Assembly: GCA_001799395.1 (NCBI GenBank)
Contig: MGTJ01000170.1
Span: forward strand, 1-34,299
DNA: 34,299 nt
Source of the DNA: Desulfobacterales bacterium RIFOXYA12_FULL_46_15
GTDB taxonomy: Bacteria; Desulfobacterota; Desulfobacteria; Desulfobacterales; Desulfobacteraceae
Reading direction: 5' to 3'
Part shown: positions 8,693-27,870 of the stretch, piece after piece
Numbering within the stretch: the first letter of the stretch is position 1
How the letters are laid out: each line of letters opens with the position of its first letter
Made by a program: the position numbers and the translations under genes
Notes under the pieces: generated by a model
Database searches by the model: none
Told to the model about the DNA's origin: nothing
The model's input: the letters and a program-made list of their open reading frames with translations, nothing else

Positions 8693-9337
8693 TCAGTGGA
8701 CCAAGGCTTTTTGGAGTTCTTCTTGTGAGATTTCTCCTTCCCGGATCATGCGGATCGGAAATACCGTGACATCCACAATAGTTGACCCGGCGCCGCCTTT
8801 TAAAATACCGGCATCAAGGACAAGGTCTGATGTTTCAATGATGGAGGGGTCAAGAAGGTCGATACGATGACAACCCGGCCGGCCCGAGAGGTTGGCGCTG
8901 GTGCCGGTGACGGGAAAGCCTAAATGATTTACAAGAGCCTTTGCTACCGGGTGGGAGGGGATTCGAATCCCAAGTTTGCCTGAACCTGCGGTCAGAAGGT
9001 TTGGAATTTCATTTTTAGCATCAAATACAAGGGTCAGGCTGCCGGGCCAGAAGATTTTCATGAGTATTTTTGCAGGTTCCGGGATGGATTTGACAAGCTT
9101 CTCAAGATGGCTCTGGTCCGGGATCAGAACCAGGATGGGGTTGTTCAGGGGGCGCTGTTTGATCCAAAAGACGTTTTTAACTGCTTTTTCATCCAGTGCC
9201 CGGGCACCGATTCCGTACAGACAGCGGGTCGGAAAGATAACAGCCCCATTGTTCCGGATGATGTTCCCGGCCCTGGCAATATAGTATGAATCCGGCCTGA
9301 CAGGATCAAGCCGGATGATTTTATCCGGGTCATACAA
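8693..9337 (-). CDS. Sua5/YciO/YrdC-family L-threonylcarbamoyladenylate synthase-like protein
   Basis: This roughly 214-residue YrdC-fold protein is of the kind that makes threonylcarbamoyl-AMP from threonine, bicarbonate and ATP for the tRNA t6A37 modification. Visible motifs are FPTRCLYGIGA (FPTETVYGLGA in typical members), the nucleotide-binding WIKQRPLNNPI (KxR(P)...NP), the WPGSLTLVF block, GKLGIRIPSHP, and the TGTSANLSG signature. The start is uncertain. The frame stays open to a TTG at 9388, which would overlap the upstream gene by 59 bases. The TTG at 9337-9335 overlaps the upstream stop and has AAAGG eight bases before it, which fits translational coupling. The FPTRC variant suggests a divergent subfamily, so another YrdC-fold role is possible. 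Confidence 0.75.
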   Translation of the reverse strand: MYDPDKIIRLDPVRPDSYYIARAGNIIRNNGAVIFPTRCLYGIGARALDEKAVKNVFWIKQRPLNNPILVLIPDQSHLEKLVKSIPEPAKILMKIFWPGSLTLVFDAKNEIPNLLTAGSGKLGIRIPSHPVAKALVNHLGFPVTGTSANLSGRPGCHRIDLLDPSIIETSDLVLDAGILKGGAGSTIVDVTVFPIRMIREGEISQEELQKALVH

Positions 9338-11093
9338 AGGACCGGGCCTTTGTATCAATTTTATCTGCCATATCCTTTTTAAAGGCAAGGAGCTTTTCCG
9401 CGATAACGGGGTCTGATGTTCCTATAATCTGAGCGGCAAAAATGCCGGCATTATAAGCCCCTGATTTTCCGATGGCCATGGTGGCAACCGGAATGCCGGG
9501 CGGCATCTGAACCGTGGCCAGAAGGGCATCAAGTCCCTTAAGAGCTGATGAATCAATGGGGACGCCGATAACCGGAAGGGCGGTGTGGGCCGCAATGACC
9601 CCTGCCAGATGGGCGGCGTGACCAGCACCGCAGATCAACACCTTGATTCCATTTTCTTTTGCTTCGCTTGCAAGTTTTGCTGCCCTTTCCGGGGTTCTGT
9701 GGGCAGAAGCCACCGTCACATAATAGGGGATATCAAATTTTTTCAAAATGGTTAAAGCCTGCTCCATGATGGAAAAATCCGAATCGCTGCCCATGATGAC
9801 CCCTACCCGGGGCAGGATGGAGAGCCGTTTCAGGGCCTTTGCACCAATATCGTTTCTATGGAAATGACCTTTGAATGAGATTTTTGAACAGGCTTCATAA
9901 GCCCTGTCAATTGCATCCTTGACCGTGTCGCCCAGTGACGTGACACCCAGGACTCTGCCGCCCGAGGTGACAATTCTGCCGTCCTTTAAGGCTGTTCCGG
10001 CATGAAAGACAACGGTATCTTTGACCTTGCCGGCTTCTTCAAGACCCAGAATTTCTTTGCCTTTTTCATAAGAACCAGGATATCCGCCGGAAGAGATGAC
10101 CACACAGATGGCGGCCCTTGGGTCGATTTTCGTGGAATGATGGTGCAGGGTCCCGTCACAGCAGGCTTCCATCAGGGGGACAAGATCATTTTCAAGCCTC
10201 ATGAGAATGGGCTGGGTTTCCGGATCTCCGAGCCGGGTATTGAATTCAAGAACTTTGATTTCATCTTTGTCAACCATGAGCCCGGCATAGAGAACCCCTT
10301 TAAACGGGGTGCCTTCCTTTGCCATGCCTGAAATTGCCGGGATCATAACGGTTTTCATGGCTTTTTCCCTGAGCATGTGATCCAGAACCGGGGCAGGGGA
10401 ATAAGCACCCATACCGCCTGTGTTGGGGCCTTCATCGTTGTCGAAAACCCTTTTGTGGTCCTGGGATTCAGGCATCATCAGAACGGTTTTACCGTCTGTC
10501 AGGGCGATAAAGGATGCCTCCTCACCCTTGAGGCATTCTTCCACAATCACAATGTCTCCGGCTTCTCCAAATATTTTTTGGCCCAGCATGTCATCAATGG
10601 CAATAAAGGCCTCATCCAGGGTGGAACAGATAATGACCCCTTTTCCTGCAGCAAGACCGTCAGCCTTGACGACACAGGGCGCGCCCACGGATTTGGCATA
10701 GATTTTGGCTTTACCTGCATCTGTAAAGGCTTTGCCTTTGGCGCAGGGGATATTGTATTTCTGCATATGCTGTTTTGAAAAAAGCTTGCTGCCTTCAAGC
10801 TTTGCTGCGGCCTTGCTTGGCCCAAATATGGCAAGACCCATATTCTCGAACACATCGACAATCCCTTTTACAAGAGGGCCTTCCGGTCCGACCACGGTGA
10901 GATCAATTTCTTTTTCCCTGGCAAAGGCGGCAAGGGTGTGAATATCATCAACATCAATGGGAACCGATTCCGCCAGCATTCTTGTGCCTGCATTGCCCGG
11001 AGCGCAGTAGATTTTTTCCACCAACGGGCTTTTGGATATTTTCCATACCAGGGTATGTTCACGGCCACCACTGCCGACAACCAGAATCTTCAT
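9330..11093 (-). CDS. purD-purE: Fused phosphoribosylamine-glycine ligase / N5-CAIR mutase (PurD-PurE)
   Basis: This 587-residue bifunctional enzyme joins two steps of purine synthesis. Residues 1 to about 423 are an entire PurD (GAR synthetase, ATP-grasp: GSGGREH 7-13, VVKADGLAAGKGV, EFNTRLGDPETQ metal/ATP site, ending in the usual HRNDIGAKALKR). Residues about 427-587 are an entire PurE domain (IMGSDSD 433-439, ASAHRTPER with the catalytic His465, GAGHAAHLAGVIAA, VPIDSSALKGLD, VQMPPGIPVATMAIGKSGA-NAG). There is no stop or frameshift at the junction, so this is a true fusion. In most bacteria purD and purE are separate, and the reactions are not consecutive (steps 2 and 6). The ATG overlaps the ddl stop (ATGA) and is preceded by AAGGAG inside ddl. 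Confidence 0.95.
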   Translation of the reverse strand: MKILVVGSGGREHTLVWKISKSPLVEKIYCAPGNAGTRMLAESVPIDVDDIHTLAAFAREKEIDLTVVGPEGPLVKGIVDVFENMGLAIFGPSKAAAKLEGSKLFSKQHMQKYNIPCAKGKAFTDAGKAKIYAKSVGAPCVVKADGLAAGKGVIICSTLDEAFIAIDDMLGQKIFGEAGDIVIVEECLKGEEASFIALTDGKTVLMMPESQDHKRVFDNDEGPNTGGMGAYSPAPVLDHMLREKAMKTVMIPAISGMAKEGTPFKGVLYAGLMVDKDEIKVLEFNTRLGDPETQPILMRLENDLVPLMEACCDGTLHHHSTKIDPRAAICVVISSGGYPGSYEKGKEILGLEEAGKVKDTVVFHAGTALKDGRIVTSGGRVLGVTSLGDTVKDAIDRAYEACSKISFKGHFHRNDIGAKALKRLSILPRVGVIMGSDSDFSIMEQALTILKKFDIPYYVTVASAHRTPERAAKLASEAKENGIKVLICGAGHAAHLAGVIAAHTALPVIGVPIDSSALKGLDALLATVQMPPGIPVATMAIGKSGAYNAGIFAAQIIGTSDPVIAEKLLAFKKDMADKIDTKARSFV

Positions 11094-22285: not shown

Positions 22286-22873
22286 CTGAATATAAGGGGA
22301 GACTTAGGAAAAATTTAAAAGCCGGGTTTATGTTCGATCGGTTGTTTTGTGCCATACAAGAGATTTTTTAAATTCTTGATAATTCCAGGGACAAAAACCT
22401 CAGAACCTGGATAATTAGTCATGACTGCTATCAGTGGATAAGCTTTGCGCCAACCGCAAAATGCTTTGGCTTCAGTTTTAATAATCCCCGGACTTTTTAA
22501 TAATAGTCTGGTCCTTTGAAATTCATCCTGGAGAAATATCGTTTTTGACAAAGTCCTCAGTGAAAAATATTAAAGATACCTATCCAAAGCAAAACTTTTT
22601 TCATTGAAAATTTTGATCATGATTTGTTGCAAGTAACCATAACTTTTGATTTGTATGAAGAGCGACTACTGGAAGATGAAATAATGGGGCTTCAATCGAA
22701 TTTTGAAACCCCATAAATAGACATAGTCAACACATAAACTGAACTGAAGGGATGCGATTGAGGTTGATAAGAACTCGTCCAACTATTTCAAGAGTGAATC
22801 GCTCCTGGAGACGAGTTGATGTCAATTTAGTTAGGGCTGAGAAGCCGCGATGTGTCGAAGACTGTGATTTTAT
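22286..22873. other. Gene-poor junction before the accessory region
   Basis: About 590 bases between the BMP promoter and the helicase gene stop codon hold no recognisable gene. A minus-strand 78-codon frame (22551-22315) is listed separately. On the plus strand 22564-22716 is an open stretch of 50 codons ending in TAA with no usable start, possibly a decayed gene tail. Base composition becomes more A+T-rich across this stretch. Confidence 0.5.
22315..22551 (-). CDS. Small hypothetical protein, doubtful
   Basis: This is a 78-codon frame opening at a TTG with GAGGA four bases before it. The product begins MSKTIFLQDEFQRTRLLLK and has no signal peptide, no clear membrane segment and no motif I recognise. 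It could be a real small gene or the remnant of a larger one. The only support is the ribosome-binding site and the uninterrupted frame between the BMP promoter and the helicase gene. Confidence 0.25.
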   Translation of the reverse strand: MSKTIFLQDEFQRTRLLLKSPGIIKTEAKAFCGWRKAYPLIAVMTNYPGSEVFVPGIIKNLKNLLYGTKQPIEHKPGF

Positions 22874-25800
22874 TTAATCAAGCCCCTCTATAATTCGCCA
22901 TACCTTCCGATACGTTTTCCCATTCTCTCCCATAGCTTGGCTCCAGCTACTCTCACCTAAATTAGAAAGGCGTTTTCTTAGTTGAGGTAACGATTCAGTG
23001 ATATGTTCATCAAGGTGCTGTGCAATAGAATCTGCAGCGGAACGGGGGACACCAAGTAATCGAAAAATGATAGCTTTGTCACTATTGACACCATAAAATG
23101 CACGGGCTGGTAGGTTGCTAAGTTCTTTTAATTTGTCTTCATCTAAGTTGTTCCCTGTAATAGCCAGAAGAGCTCCAAGACCCCAAGAGGCGGTTTGCGT
23201 TAATTTACCAAACAAATTTTGGCCGCATTTTGTAATTGCATGAACATCAGTTTCTCCCTCATTCTGAAAATAGTTTTTAGCTATTTCAGAAATTGATACG
23301 CCACCAACCCAGTCTTTGAGAATTAACGCAAGTTTGTCCCCATCTGGAGAGTCGCCACCTGTAACGGCATTTAGGTTGTCACGAAGCTCTGGAATACGTA
23401 GGAGAATCCCCATCATATCCTGAAGAGTTGAATCACTTGACGCGTATAGAGATTCACCATCCCAGGAATTCTCATTAATATTTTTTTTGTTGACCAACAC
23501 AGTATTCACACTTTGAAGAGAGAAGCCTGTGCTATCCACCAGCTTAAGGGGTTGTCCTGCTTGCTGAAGGTAATTTGTGTATGTTTCTATACCAGCGAGT
23601 AAATTTTGGGCAATCTGACTATGATTGGTTCTGAGTTTTTCAAAACCTAAAGTTCCTCGAAGAACCTGTTCAATTTGTTGAAAATAGCTTTCAGGCTTAC
23701 CCATCTGTTGGTAGGTGTGGGTTAAATATTGCAAAAAACTTGACCATTCTGGAGTACTATAAACAATTCCCCCTAAGTCCGATAGTTTATCGCCCGCATT
23801 TACAGCCAACTGAACAAGTGCAGAATTTAAGTCCTCTGTTTGTTTATTAATAAATGTTTTTAATTTTTCAGCTTTTAAATCACTATCTGCAGCTAAGGCA
23901 ACAACACCCAACTGCCCTTGTGAAACACGGCCAGCTCGACCAGCAATATTCCAAAAATCCTCAGGAGGCATGTCTTCAGCACCCTGTGGGCTGAAATATT
24001 GATGAGATGCCATGACAACACCGCTGACAGGGAAGTTGATTCCTTGAGCAATGGTTGTTGTCGCAACAAGAAATTCTATCCTTTCATTTTCAAATAGCCA
24101 CTCAATTAAAGTGCGAACTTCCTCTGGTAAACCTGAATGATGAACAGCAATACCGTATTCAATCAAATCAACTAGGGGGAATGAATCTCCTAATTCTAAG
24201 CGCAGATAATCCTGAAGTAGCTTTACGTCATCATGAATAGCCTCAACACGGTTTGTTTTTGTTTTTAAATGTTCAGCCAATGACCAAACCCAGTCAGGGC
24301 GTGCATGCATAACAATTACAGGGCCACGTTCCTTGAAAAACTGTGCGGCGAGAGCAGCAATTCTCCCTTGGTTGTTTGCTTGTGCATAAGTGTTTGCAAT
24401 ATCTATGTTTTTAGGGATAGGGATTTGTTCGTCAACGGTAATAGTTTTCCGAGTAGTATGAACGGTTTCAAAGTTAAGACTGTAGTCAAAGCTTCTACCA
24501 GTTAGTGCCCCACCTTTTACCGGCTTAACTATTCCAATCGCCCGGTCATTTGGCTGCCAGTCTAATGATAGACTGATATCATCAGAATTAGTTCCTCCAA
24601 GCCATCGAGCAACTTCACGAGCATTATTGATAAAAGGGGTCAATAGAAGAAATTGAGCATTTAAACATTCTTTGTTTATTGTTGCTAAAAGAAGCTCGAG
24701 TTTAAGCCCTCGGCGAATAGACTGGATATTATGTGCTTCATCTACCACAACCAAGGTTAAAGGCCTACCAATCTTTGTTTCCCAGCCTTGGCGTAACATC
24801 AGATCTAATTTTTCAGGCGTTGTTACAAGTACCCTAAACTTTTGTTCATCAGATTGTTCCTTAAGTAAATCCATTTCCACACTATCGACCTCTAGTGCGG
24901 GGCTAACTTTTTCTACAGCGATAGATAATGGAGCAAAATCAGAACGCAATTGTCGAGTCACTTGATTCACTAATGCTCTAGTTGGAGCTAAATAGGCAAC
25001 CCATCCTTTTTCATGGTCAAATTGATTGAGTGCCTGAAGAATTCGGAATTGTGAAATCATTGTTTTACCGCTTGAAGTCGGTAAACTAACGACTACTGCG
25101 CGACGACTTGAGCCCAACAATCCTTTTTCTGAGAGTGCTCTTCTTTGAGGTGGAAGAACATCAAACAGAGCTTTATCCCCGCGTCCTCTATCAACAAGAC
25201 TTTTTACAAACTGTGTAACTTTTGAATTGACTGCACGTGTTACCGTCCAGATAGAGTTTTCAACCATTTGTACAGCGGCTGCATTGAGCAATCTTGTCAT
25301 TGGCTCAAAATCAATCATCCTGGCATGTTCACAGACCGCCAAAGCTCTGTCGAAATGGGTTTCCAGAAGTTGTCGGATCTGAAAATTACCATCAACCACA
25401 CCGTCAGTGATGAAGAGAGCCATAATTTCAGCAGCTTTAGCTAAGTGGTAAAGCCCAATAAGCTCCAGCGCAGCAGGTTTTGAAACTTTTGAGTCAATAC
25501 TGCTTAGATAGCTATTTTCATACTGGCTTTGCTGCTCCCGCAGATCGGCAATTCGTTGTAGAACGATATCTCTATCTTCCCAGCCTTTTTTTCTGATCAG
25601 ACGTAACCAAACATCAACTATTGTAGACCATGTCCGTTTTCCCCAATCATCAGAATCATAAGGAAGGTTTGGCCAGTCTATTTGTTTAAGAATTCTTGAT
25701 GCGTCCGCTCCACGATCACCTAAAACTGCCAAAGAAGACATTCTTAGTAACTGATAAGATGCTTGCACAGAATCTTCTGGTAAGGGTAATACTCGTAATA

Positions 25801-26038
25801 TTCGGAATGCATCAGTCGCACATTCACGCATTGTACGTAGTTTTCCTTCATTCTCTTCAAAACGGTCAAGAATTAAATCTAAAGCTGTTAGTTCAAGGGC
25901 ATTGGCAACATCTCTAAATTCAACAAAATCAACATCAATATTTTGATTTAACAATTCTTGATGTATTTGAATACGTTCAGCATTTTTAAGGGCGGAGCTT
26001 CTCTTTTCGGAGATGCTGTCTAAAAGCCAATGACTCAT
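22874..26038 (-). CDS. Ski2-like DEAH-box helicase of a Hachiman-type defence module (HamB-like)
   Basis: This is a 1054-residue superfamily 2 helicase. Residues 1 to about 300 are a helical domain without recognised motifs. The helicase core has motif I SLPTSSGKT (318-326), motif Ia APTRALVNQV, motif II VVDEAHN (431-437), motif III as LLLTPF rather than the usual SAT, HHSGL (633-637), ATTTIAQGINFP (about 659-670), and motif VI IAGRAGR (698-704). A C-terminal helical region of about 340 residues follows. This layout resembles Ski2/Hel308-family helicases, including HamB of the Hachiman anti-phage system. Its start overlaps the stop of the nuclease-like gene by four bases, so the two proteins are co-translated. 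Hachiman assignment rests on the gene pair and motifs, not on a search; a related unnamed helicase-nuclease system is possible. Confidence 0.8.
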   Translation of the reverse strand: MSHWLLDSISEKRSSALKNAERIQIHQELLNQNIDVDFVEFRDVANALELTALDLILDRFEENEGKLRTMRECATDAFRILRVLPLPEDSVQASYQLLRMSSLAVLGDRGADASRILKQIDWPNLPYDSDDWGKRTWSTIVDVWLRLIRKKGWEDRDIVLQRIADLREQQSQYENSYLSSIDSKVSKPAALELIGLYHLAKAAEIMALFITDGVVDGNFQIRQLLETHFDRALAVCEHARMIDFEPMTRLLNAAAVQMVENSIWTVTRAVNSKVTQFVKSLVDRGRGDKALFDVLPPQRRALSEKGLLGSSRRAVVVSLPTSSGKTMISQFRILQALNQFDHEKGWVAYLAPTRALVNQVTRQLRSDFAPLSIAVEKVSPALEVDSVEMDLLKEQSDEQKFRVLVTTPEKLDLMLRQGWETKIGRPLTLVVVDEAHNIQSIRRGLKLELLLATINKECLNAQFLLLTPFINNAREVARWLGGTNSDDISLSLDWQPNDRAIGIVKPVKGGALTGRSFDYSLNFETVHTTRKTITVDEQIPIPKNIDIANTYAQANNQGRIAALAAQFFKERGPVIVMHARPDWVWSLAEHLKTKTNRVEAIHDDVKLLQDYLRLELGDSFPLVDLIEYGIAVHHSGLPEEVRTLIEWLFENERIEFLVATTTIAQGINFPVSGVVMASHQYFSPQGAEDMPPEDFWNIAGRAGRVSQGQLGVVALAADSDLKAEKLKTFINKQTEDLNSALVQLAVNAGDKLSDLGGIVYSTPEWSSFLQYLTHTYQQMGKPESYFQQIEQVLRGTLGFEKLRTNHSQIAQNLLAGIETYTNYLQQAGQPLKLVDSTGFSLQSVNTVLVNKKNINENSWDGESLYASSDSTLQDMMGILLRIPELRDNLNAVTGGDSPDGDKLALILKDWVGGVSISEIAKNYFQNEGETDVHAITKCGQNLFGKLTQTASWGLGALLAITGNNLDEDKLKELSNLPARAFYGVNSDKAIIFRLLGVPRSAADSIAQHLDEHITESLPQLRKRLSNLGESSWSQAMGENGKTYRKVWRIIEGLD

Positions 26039-26856
26039 GACGCACCCCCATTTCTAATCTTTGTAATTAGCTCATCAATACCCCAAGGTAAATATAATGC
26101 AGTTAACTGACATGTTGTTGGATTTGAAAAATCTCTTCTAAAAGCAGCTCCTGGAAGTGAAAGATCTCTTTCATTTACTTGGGTATCTCTAATCAAAATA
26201 CCGTATAAGGCAATGTTTTTATTCTCTGAATTAAAAAGGTTAATTGCGGCCTGATCATAACTCAATTCATGAACTGTATTCTTAATTCTTGGTAGCAGCC
26301 ATTTTATCAATTGACCAATTGCTGTTAAATCATTGGATAGTTTATAAATTTGATAGCCCATTCCTGCATGGTCACTTGGTTCGGGGTTATAACTGCGCCC
26401 GGACATAACTTGGGGTGGATATTGCTTTTCTGATGAGCTCTTAACTTCACCTAACACAAAGCGGCAATCAGTTCCATTACCAATAAATCCAACAACATCA
26501 GCCCCTGGTAAACTTCCAAATGGATTGCGTTTATCCCGTTCCATATTCCACGGAAAAACAACCCCTGATTTTTCTTCCAAAAATGCCTCTGCTAAAGCTT
26601 CTCCAGCAGCCCATGCACGTTCCTCAGGATGCACTGCATTTAGCACTGCGGCAAGGCTTTCTTGGCCTAAACCTGTTAATGCAAGGCCATTCAAATGATT
26701 GCGGAATTCATCTGTACCCTCAGCATCATCAAGACGACTTGCTACCTTGGTATTTAAGAAAGCAGAAAATTGTTCATTGTCTTCACACTGCAGTCCTAAC
26801 CAAGATACGCAATCGTGGTTATCCTCATAAGCGGTACTGGTGAAGAGAAGACTCAT
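26035..26856 (-). CDS. Putative nuclease subunit of the helicase module (HamA/DUF1837-like)
   Basis: This 273-residue protein is encoded directly upstream of the helicase gene. Its centre holds a PD-(D/E)xK-like arrangement: Asp120 in LPGADVVGF, then after a hairpin Glu137-x-Lys139 in VLGEVKSSS. That spacing and position match the nuclease site I recall for HamA (Glu138/Lys140). The preceding helix AAGEALAEAFLEEK supplies a Glu typical of such folds. Hachiman HamA is a DNA nuclease held in check by HamB until activated, so this pair would be a DNA-sensing anti-phage effector. ATG 26856 has GGAG ten bases upstream. The sequence is divergent enough that I would call it HamA-like rather than HamA. 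Confidence 0.65.
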   Translation of the reverse strand: MSLLFTSTAYEDNHDCVSWLGLQCEDNEQFSAFLNTKVASRLDDAEGTDEFRNHLNGLALTGLGQESLAAVLNAVHPEERAWAAGEALAEAFLEEKSGVVFPWNMERDKRNPFGSLPGADVVGFIGNGTDCRFVLGEVKSSSEKQYPPQVMSGRSYNPEPSDHAGMGYQIYKLSNDLTAIGQLIKWLLPRIKNTVHELSYDQAAINLFNSENKNIALYGILIRDTQVNERDLSLPGAAFRRDFSNPTTCQLTALYLPWGIDELITKIRNGGAS

Positions 26857-27870
26857 CTAACAGAAACTCCGTCTCTTAGTGGTGAGGTTATGCAGAGCAG
26901 TGCCCAGTTCTGCGCGGGGGATACAGTTGTCGTTTTTTCAGTCATCTCAATCCTAAACAGGTCAATTACTGTTTTTTAGCTACTGGAGCGGTTTGTATTG
27001 AGCTTGTTCACCTGCCTCGATCCATCTGTCTTCTATGCTTCGATTTTATACCATTTTGAGAGCTTTCTACTATCATTTCAAGCTGTTCAATTGAGATAAT
27101 ACACGCGCACGGTTGGTTTAATCTGGATATATTCAACTAAACCGAGTTTAAGATATAAAGATAGGACAAAAAAAACAAGAATTCTTTCCTGATTAAACCG
27201 ATTTTTTCTATTTTAAGCTTTGTTGGAAACAAGTTGTTATAATTTGGATCAAGGGCAAGGTGCCCTTGAAACAATTTCTCTTTGAATATTTTCAATTGAT
27301 GTTAGGGGGTTTCTGCGCTGATGGCTTTTTGGTTTATTTTTAGCAAGTTCGTTAATACTACTGTACATTACGTTGGTTTCAGCTATTAACCGGAAAAGGG
27401 TTTTAATTTGCATACCTCAAAATTTTCATCCTGTAGACTATATCCATTTTTTCTCCCCCAATGCTGATTTAAAGGTCAACACTATTATTAAAAGTCTGGG
27501 GTTTTTAAAACGGTAACCATGTACCTCATTTTAGAGGTTGATTGCAGTTATGATTAATTATCCAATGGATAGCCGCCAGAAGACGCTCAAGATATCAATG
27601 ATATGATTTATAATCATGATTAAATTTTTGAGGTTCTGGCAGGTTATACGAAGCAAATTGAGGCGAGGACTACATCAATGACAAACTCCTTTTTTATGCG
27701 AACGAGCACCCAGACTTTTTGTTATTGGTCGTTCCATTTTAATTTGTCATAGCGGCAAGTAATGCCATTATGTCGCATTTTGGTATTACTTTTATGGTGT
27801 ATAGAAATCATCAATATAGTAGGTGCCAGCCAGGAAAACCTGGTTACTATTTTTCAGTATATTTTTAAAA
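26857..27870. other. 1-kb intergenic stretch without a supported gene
   Basis: No frame of convincing length or content is present on either strand. It holds the 8-bp perfect inverted repeat CAAGGGCA/TGCCCTTG (27250-27268, three-base loop), AT-rich palindromes (near 27600), copy A of the GGACTAC repeat, and a hairpin CCAGG-AAAA-CCTGG followed by TATTTTT near 27825 that could terminate plus-strand transcription. On the minus strand near 27000-27080 short open tails suggest decayed coding sequence. Confidence 0.5.
27643..27680 (+). repeat. GGACTAC intergenic repeat, copy A (partial)
   Basis: It contains TGGCAG, then CGAAGCAAATTGAGGCGA and GGACTAC (27667-27673). It shares TGGCAG with 30-31-base spacing to GGACTAC with copy D, and GAAG..CAAATTG..GGACTAC with copy B. 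The downstream half seen in copies B-D (ATCYCTGT) is not recognisable here. Confidence 0.45.

Follow-up and report, generated by a model that had tools for sequence, protein, structure and literature searches.

A divergent Hachiman-like nuclease and helicase pair of the PDC-M23 type in a Desulfobacterales contig

Does a small nuclease-like gene lying next to a large helicase gene on contig MGTJ01000170.1 of Desulfobacterales bacterium RIFOXYA12_FULL_46_15 (assembly GCA_001799395.1) make up a Hachiman system, a relative of Hachiman, or a module of another kind? The window, by which we mean the whole stretch of 34,299 nucleotides that was analysed, carries the two intact genes, A and B, on its reverse strand, and A is transcribed ahead of B. 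An earlier reading made without database searches (the sequence-only reading) had described two open reading frames (ORFs) with a four-base overlap and the small gene first, and these features and the sizes are exactly as it gave them (Table 1). It had also proposed a likeness to Hachiman, which holds in fold and architecture and fails in sequence, where Pfam HamA is not matched and PADLOC prefers its M23 models. Its further suggestion of a divergent subtype or a related unnamed system was right about divergence and relatedness and wrong about the name, since the catalogue name PDC-M23 exists. We think it quite likely that the pair is a divergent Hachiman-like immune module, a complex of a sensor helicase and a DNase. 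PDC-M23 is probably a distinct Hachiman-related variant that works like Hachiman.

Predicted structures and relation to Hachiman

In PADLOC-DB (2023), the best match of A is PDC-M23A (E-value 6.5e-91, residues 1-269), followed by HamA1 (5e-4). The best match of B is PDC-M23B (E 0, residues 2-1052), followed by HamB1 (1e-69). The adjacent proteins match both models over nearly their full length, and we saw no difference from the models. The pair is therefore a member of the already catalogued two-gene candidate PDC-M23, and it is not undiscovered because PADLOC-DB already models both proteins. PDCs are, according to one source, putative candidates that were identified through 'guilt by embedding' and for the most part have not been validated by experiment (PMC12988326), and another describes them as unpublished candidates of Payne et al. 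(PMC11811056). A search for the term 'PDC-M23' gave no paper in the open-licence full text of PubMed Central, a scope that leaves bioRxiv outside PubMed Central and most subscription journals aside. Searches of the same text for Hachiman with PADLOC, PDC-M, embedding or type I restriction-modification returned no functional report on the pair among the matches listed. Pfam recognises DEAD, ResIII and Helicase_C in B; on A, Pfam and NCBIfam find nothing.

The catalytic site of A is strongly conserved. All 25 rows of the A alignment hold E86, D108, G118, D120, G136, V138, K139, P147, P148 and Q169, and E137 is present in 24 rows, with Q in the remaining one. This alignment omits the broken or cut copies of loci L003, L020, L021, L064, L065, L066 and L068 and the divergent copies of L067, L069 and L070, which were aligned apart; for L019, L036 and L060, the N-terminus of A was trimmed. 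D120, E137 and K139, the residues picked out by the sequence-only reading, are thus real. D120 and G136-E137-V138-K139 form the D-GExK nuclease motif, which is the canonical motif of HamA (PMC12799240), and E86 is the glutamate in the upstream helix. Mutating HamA E138 and K140 together ablated defence (PMC12278908). In the A copies of L019 and L021, the latter a fragment, the active-site glutamate is replaced by glutamine (GQVK).

The AlphaFold2 model of A has a predicted local distance difference test score (pLDDT) of 82 and a predicted template modelling score (pTM) of 0.82. The sole Foldseek match of this model in PDB below 0.001 is HamA 8vx9_A (E 5.6e-6, TM-score 0.56-0.58), and the second match is another Hachiman structure, 8zue_A (E 0.016). 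Searching PDB sequences (E up to 10) with a nine-member A profile gave matches to HamA 8vxy_A (0.0021) and 8vx9_A (0.0042) and a weak one to DinG (0.63). Alignment by hhalign to ten HamA-type proteins reached 92.1% (E 6e-7, 61 columns), compared with at most 0.2% in ten column-shuffled controls, and paired D120, E137 and K139 of A with the D, E and K of HamA. Six of these ten proteins are annotated as HamA/DUF1837, one has a Pfam match, and three are unannotated partners of HamB-like helicases. By predicted fold and motif, A is a HamA-type nuclease.

The segment W103-G118 of A is also strongly conserved, with the pattern FPWxxxRDxRNxxxSLPG, and its HamA counterpart (Table 1) is a loop contacting HamB (PMC12278908). 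R107xxR110 of A might be taken for the (R/K)xx(R/K) interface motif described in the literature, but we rejected this reading: the HMMER alignment places it out of step with K103xxR106 and with K108xxR111, the two patterns of that form seen in the HamA loop.

B, described earlier as a Ski2-like DEAH helicase, has VVDEAHN as its DEAH box, and its motifs I, V and VI are present. A match of the helicase to HamB had been named as a test of the Hachiman reading, and was obtained both with HamB1 in PADLOC and by structure: HamB occupies ranks 1-3 when the B model is searched against PDB by Foldseek (E 1e-22 to 1e-21, about 1190 columns), and Hel308 comes next (5e-17, about 820 columns). The N-terminal 290 residues of B align by hhalign with the N-terminal domain of HamB at 80.5% (E 1.3e-5, 196 columns; the divergent helicases of L067, L069 and L070 omitted), and the C-terminal part aligns with that of HamB at 98.6% (E 1e-15), while six column-shuffled controls stay at or below 0.4%. 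The N-terminus of the model is helical to residue 282, and its ten-residue pLDDT means range from 55 to 87, being mostly above 70 up to residue 260 and below 50 thereafter. B thus has the predicted layout of HamB, a Ski2-like helicase with an N-terminal helical domain. Profile and model suggest that this domain is the counterpart of the HamA-binding domain.

Several results weigh against a Hachiman assignment. A has no match to Pfam HamA (PF08878, DUF1837) at E up to 1, so the confident DUF1837 match that the sequence-only reading had proposed to look for is absent; only 3 of the 25 A members match any PADLOC HamA model at 0.001; and the superposition of A on HamA is loose, with a root-mean-square deviation of 6.3. 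The model of B is modest (pLDDT 69, pTM 0.62). The core sequence of B alone would not settle a HamB identity, because phmmer against PDB ranks Slh1, ASCC3, Brr2, Ski2-type and Hel308 chains above HamB (6e-47 vs 2.6e-21). A PADLOC scan of ten neighbours found no defence system around the window pair. Finally, motif III reads (T/M/S)P(F/Y/N) in 30/30 rows of the M23 clade, several of them near-copies, whereas it is SA(V/I/A/T) in 13/13 HamB-type and other superfamily 2 (SF2) rows. In eIF4AI, replacing SAT by AAA increases ATPase and eliminates helicase activity (PMC4666354); a mechanism driven by the helicase may therefore not apply to this clade.

In a 43-row helicase tree, which came with a program warning of long branches, 28 M23B proteins and two from Rhizobium/Ensifer form one clade (support 99/95). 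Grouping of the 11 HamB-type rows is weak (68/32), and for this reason the M23 clade may be either sister to the HamB type or nested within it. The M23 clade still has recognisable motifs I, Ia, Ib, II, V and VI. In Prp43, motif III couples ATPase with unwinding (PMC5262380). Since the motif is replaced here, ATP hydrolysis may couple to movement or nuclease release differently from HamB; by analogy with motif III of these other helicases, ATP coupling in B may be altered. Locus L067 bridges the two families: its A matches M23A with an E-value of 6e-14, and eight HamA models also match it, with E-values from 1e-5 to 0.015. The two Rhizobium/Ensifer plasmid loci (L084:4740-8712 and L085:4743-8748) encode an M23-like helicase and an unannotated partner with QxK in place of ExK; their helicases fall in the M23 clade despite the QxK site.

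The pair therefore resembles Hachiman in gene order, sizes, HamA fold, D-GExK motif and the N-terminal helical domain on a Ski2-like helicase. It differs in A lying outside the DUF1837/PF08878 sequence family, in the separate helicase clade and in the proline form of motif III. The B model ends in helices, whereas E. coli HamB has a barrel-like domain (PMC12278908), and four PDC-M23 relatives lie inside type I restriction operons. A plain Hachiman system was rejected, as A is not of the HamA sequence family and B falls in a clade of its own beside the weakly supported HamB group and lacks the motif III of that group; on these two grounds, we file the pair as a Hachiman-related separate clade, PDC-M23. 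AbpAB, proposed as a Hachiman variant, likewise combines a nuclease with a Ski2-like helicase, but AbpA joins a Cap4-like nuclease at its N-terminus to a HamA-like domain whose residues are inactive (PMC12278908). A shows no such fusion: its 273 residues keep an intact HamA-type site and give no match to a second Pfam domain. B shares its helicase core with Hel308, Ski2 and Brr2. The passages of PMC12278908 on these helicases report them without an N-terminal HamA-binding domain, unlike B with its helical N-domain, and SAT is kept in motif III of the Hel308 row and of one further SF2 row that we compared.

Linkage, distribution and neighbourhoods of the relatives

In 31 of 35 loci, the window included, B is the next gene downstream of A, and in 26 of the 31 the stop codon of A and the start codon of B overlap by the same four bases, so the pairing is not a matter of chance. 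The 31 count the broken L003, L020 and L040 and the contig-end-cut L036 and L064. As for the other four, L065 and L066 end at the contig edge, and L021 and L068 hold only a fragment of A. Refetches of the same places are excluded from the 35, and L064, L065 and L066 come from one genome. The sequence-only reading had named as its refutation a small protein without nuclease fold or HamA homology and with homologues unlinked to the helicase; a HamA fold and linkage were found instead. The ATGA overlap suggests translational coupling of A and B. Over 23 complete pairs, the A and B distances correlate with r 0.93, a value reached in 0 of 10000 permutations. We read this as co-inheritance and not as interaction, because shared descent of the whole locus would give the same result.

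PDC-M23A is patchily distributed. Four of 97 near relatives carry it, as do 4 of 86 family genomes and 3 of 345 genomes drawn from the phylum, and it is present in 1/46 and 3/39 genomes of two other groups of the same phylum. The phyla to which an Arenicellales, a Bacillota and a Lentisphaeria genome belong gave counts of 2/398, 10/398 and 5/194, respectively, and 3 of the 10 matches in the second set are weak (1e-7 to 3e-13). These genome sets overlap (the near-relative and family sets share the same four), and each includes its own copy-bearing centre. None of 14 control genomes has it. The named metagenome-assembled genomes with PDC-M23 belong to Chlorobiaceae, Arenicellales, Lentisphaeria and Bacillota. 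Close relatives of the window helicase in the tree come from different phyla, which makes horizontal transfer of the pair likely from these sequences.

Six A copies lie on IMG/VR contigs; two alignment-based scans gave the same six, and a first scan gave none. Searching annotated phage and plasmid records by tblastn gave no match to A. B matched 180 plasmid records, and 14 of these regions were inspected: the gene upstream of the helicase is annotated as HamA/DUF1837 in six and unannotated in six, one of the remaining two has a Hel308-like helicase without an obvious HamA-type partner, and the last is an unannotated record. Among phages, B had 12 partial matches, and the one inspected is unannotated. 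At L082:1249-2067 and L083:1300-2148, HamA-family (PF08878) proteins stand beside the end of an apparent PglZ-type gene, as judged by eye and not by search, and no Ski2 helicase was noted among ORFs of at least 150 residues in the 3.4 kb examined.

The Pfam tally of 150 neighbours at 22 loci, given as raw counts, is led by N6-methylase (7 proteins) and specificity subunits (5). The scan covered 150 of 159 ORFs of 90-900 residues, up to four per side, the nine omitted being the rest of L005, L004 and L067; ten further neighbour proteins, mostly large, were scanned separately. BrxL is upstream of the pair in L035. In L019, a DNA methylase stands on one side of the pair and a Snf2-type helicase on the other, and an OLD-like protein lies further out. 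A CBASS operon is directly beside the related pair of R. etli.

Proposed mechanism and alternatives

For the observed gene pair, with its linkage, predicted folds, conserved catalytic residues, common N-terminal domain and separate clade, the studied Hachiman systems supply by analogy a scheme of complex formation, DNA-damage sensing, nuclease activation and cell outcome. B would patrol the DNA as a Ski2-like helicase or translocase, and its N-terminal helical domain would keep A, the PD-(D/E)xK DNase, inactive. On meeting abnormal DNA, such as ends, single strands or replication and repair intermediates arising from phage infection, B would hydrolyse ATP and remodel the A-B interface. The freed A would then degrade DNA without sequence specificity, and the infection would be aborted. 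The candidate PDC-M23, so far a putative database entry, gains in this way a predicted fold, a catalytic site and a mechanism, and the Hachiman design would extend beyond the Pfam HamA family.

One version compatible with a Hachiman-like module is that B serves as an ATP-dependent conformational switch or as a translocase, without unwinding DNA, so that binding and ATP turnover release A. The clade-wide loss of SA(V/T) from motif III, a motif that couples ATPase to unwinding in other SF2 helicases, speaks for it. The remaining motifs are recognisable in the B clade, however, the cited motif III data come from RNA helicases of other families, and the 30 rows, with near-copies among them, do not count as independent; we regard this version as possible but rather doubtful. 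This clade-wide replacement is itself a natural test of whether Hachiman-type activation proceeds by DNA unwinding or by ATP-driven remodelling alone. The pair could otherwise be an accessory arm of type I restriction that works with HsdMSR, perhaps by finishing off the ends that HsdR leaves in DNA. The order hsdM-hsdS-A-B-hsdR in L005, L018, L037 and L039 favours such a role: the frames overlap or abut in L018, L037 and L039, M and S are fused in one gene in L037, and M and S are separated by two small ORFs in L005. Yet this strict arrangement occurs in only 4 of 31 other loci, several of which are too short to tell, and a phmmer search for these Hsd proteins came back empty for both the window and the L015 stretch, which is from the same genus. 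Some embedding is to be expected in any case, because PDC candidates were found by guilt by embedding according to the part of PMC12988326 that describes them. We judge the restriction arm unlikely. Operons of this kind would allow a direct test of whether restriction is linked to DNA destruction set off by DNA damage.

That the pair has no role in immunity, being either a housekeeping module for DNA repair or a remnant in decay, seems to us very improbable. The stand-alone position of the pair between a Bmp-family ABC transporter and SelO would suit this reading, as would the broken relatives L003, L020, L021 and L040. On the other side, the window copy is intact, the distribution is patchy (4/86 family genomes, for instance) and spread over several phyla, and some relatives have restriction, BREX or CBASS neighbours. 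Returning to the Hachiman-like module, a more far-reaching form of it, which we offer as a long shot, sees PDC-M23 as a branch of the Hachiman superfamily in which the standard motif III was lost and the nuclease is controlled through DNA binding and ATP turnover, with no unwinding; in some hosts, it would be wired into type I restriction operons so that HsdR-made ends trigger a second, cell-wide destruction of DNA.

The pair and its surroundings in the window

Table 1. Features of the PDC-M23 pair and its downstream flank (window positions)
Feature	Position	Strand	Basis
Gene A (PDC-M23A), 273 aa, HamA-like PD-(D/E)xK nuclease (predicted)	26035..26856	-	PADLOC, predicted fold, conserved E86/D120/E137/K139/Q169
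Codons of A residues 103-118 (WNMERDKRNPFGSLPG), aligned with HamA 102-117	26503..26550	-	HMMER alignment to 8vxy_A/8vx9_A
Four-base start/stop overlap of A and B (ATGA)	26035..26038	-	read from sequence; same overlap in 26/31 loci
Gene B (PDC-M23B), 1054 aa, Ski2-like SF2 DEAH helicase with N-terminal helical domain	22874..26038	-	PADLOC, fold matches
Codons of B residues 1-290, helical N-terminal domain, predicted counterpart of HamB's HamA-binding NAH domain	25169..26038	-	hhalign, model
Codons of B residues 463-472 (FLLLTPFINN), motif III, SA(V/T) to TPF	24623..24652	-	row alignment
Possible intrinsic terminator downstream of B	22684..22714	-	12-pair stem, weak tail

The setting of the pair is A+T-rich and gene-poor, as had been noted from the letters: the G+C content is 40.8% in the pair and 35-36% in the intergenic flanks, compared with 45.9% in the remaining window. 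The flanks measure 660 and 1014 bp and hold a single ORF of 78 residues, with no other of at least 60 residues in the non-overlapping ORF list. Terminator-like sites, four in number against a mean of 4.5 in shuffles, give no evidence of function. To the left of the pair lies an ATP-binding cassette (ABC) transporter operon with two permeases, an ATPase and a Bmp-family binding protein, and to the right are a SelO gene and a PEBP-family gene. The transporter ATPase is the only one of the ten neighbours that scores in PADLOC, with generic ATPase matches (best mad3, 1.7e-36). A Pfam scan of 20 other window proteins found no defence-like genes.

The segments 22408-22520 and 27468-27564 are degenerate copies of one repeat that flank the pair in inverted orientation, the best piece having 80% identity (E 3e-7). 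Six further contigs of this genome, and many contigs from genomes of the same genus, have short matches to the repeat flank regions. Such inverted repeats could mark a unit that moves or recombines. None of seven same-genus genomes in which both flanks matched showed an empty site, as the flanks lie on different contigs of these fragmented assemblies.

Elsewhere in the window, Rfam identifies one tRNA, and at 9330-11093 PurD (GARS) and PurE (AIR carboxylase) domains are fused in one protein of 587 residues.

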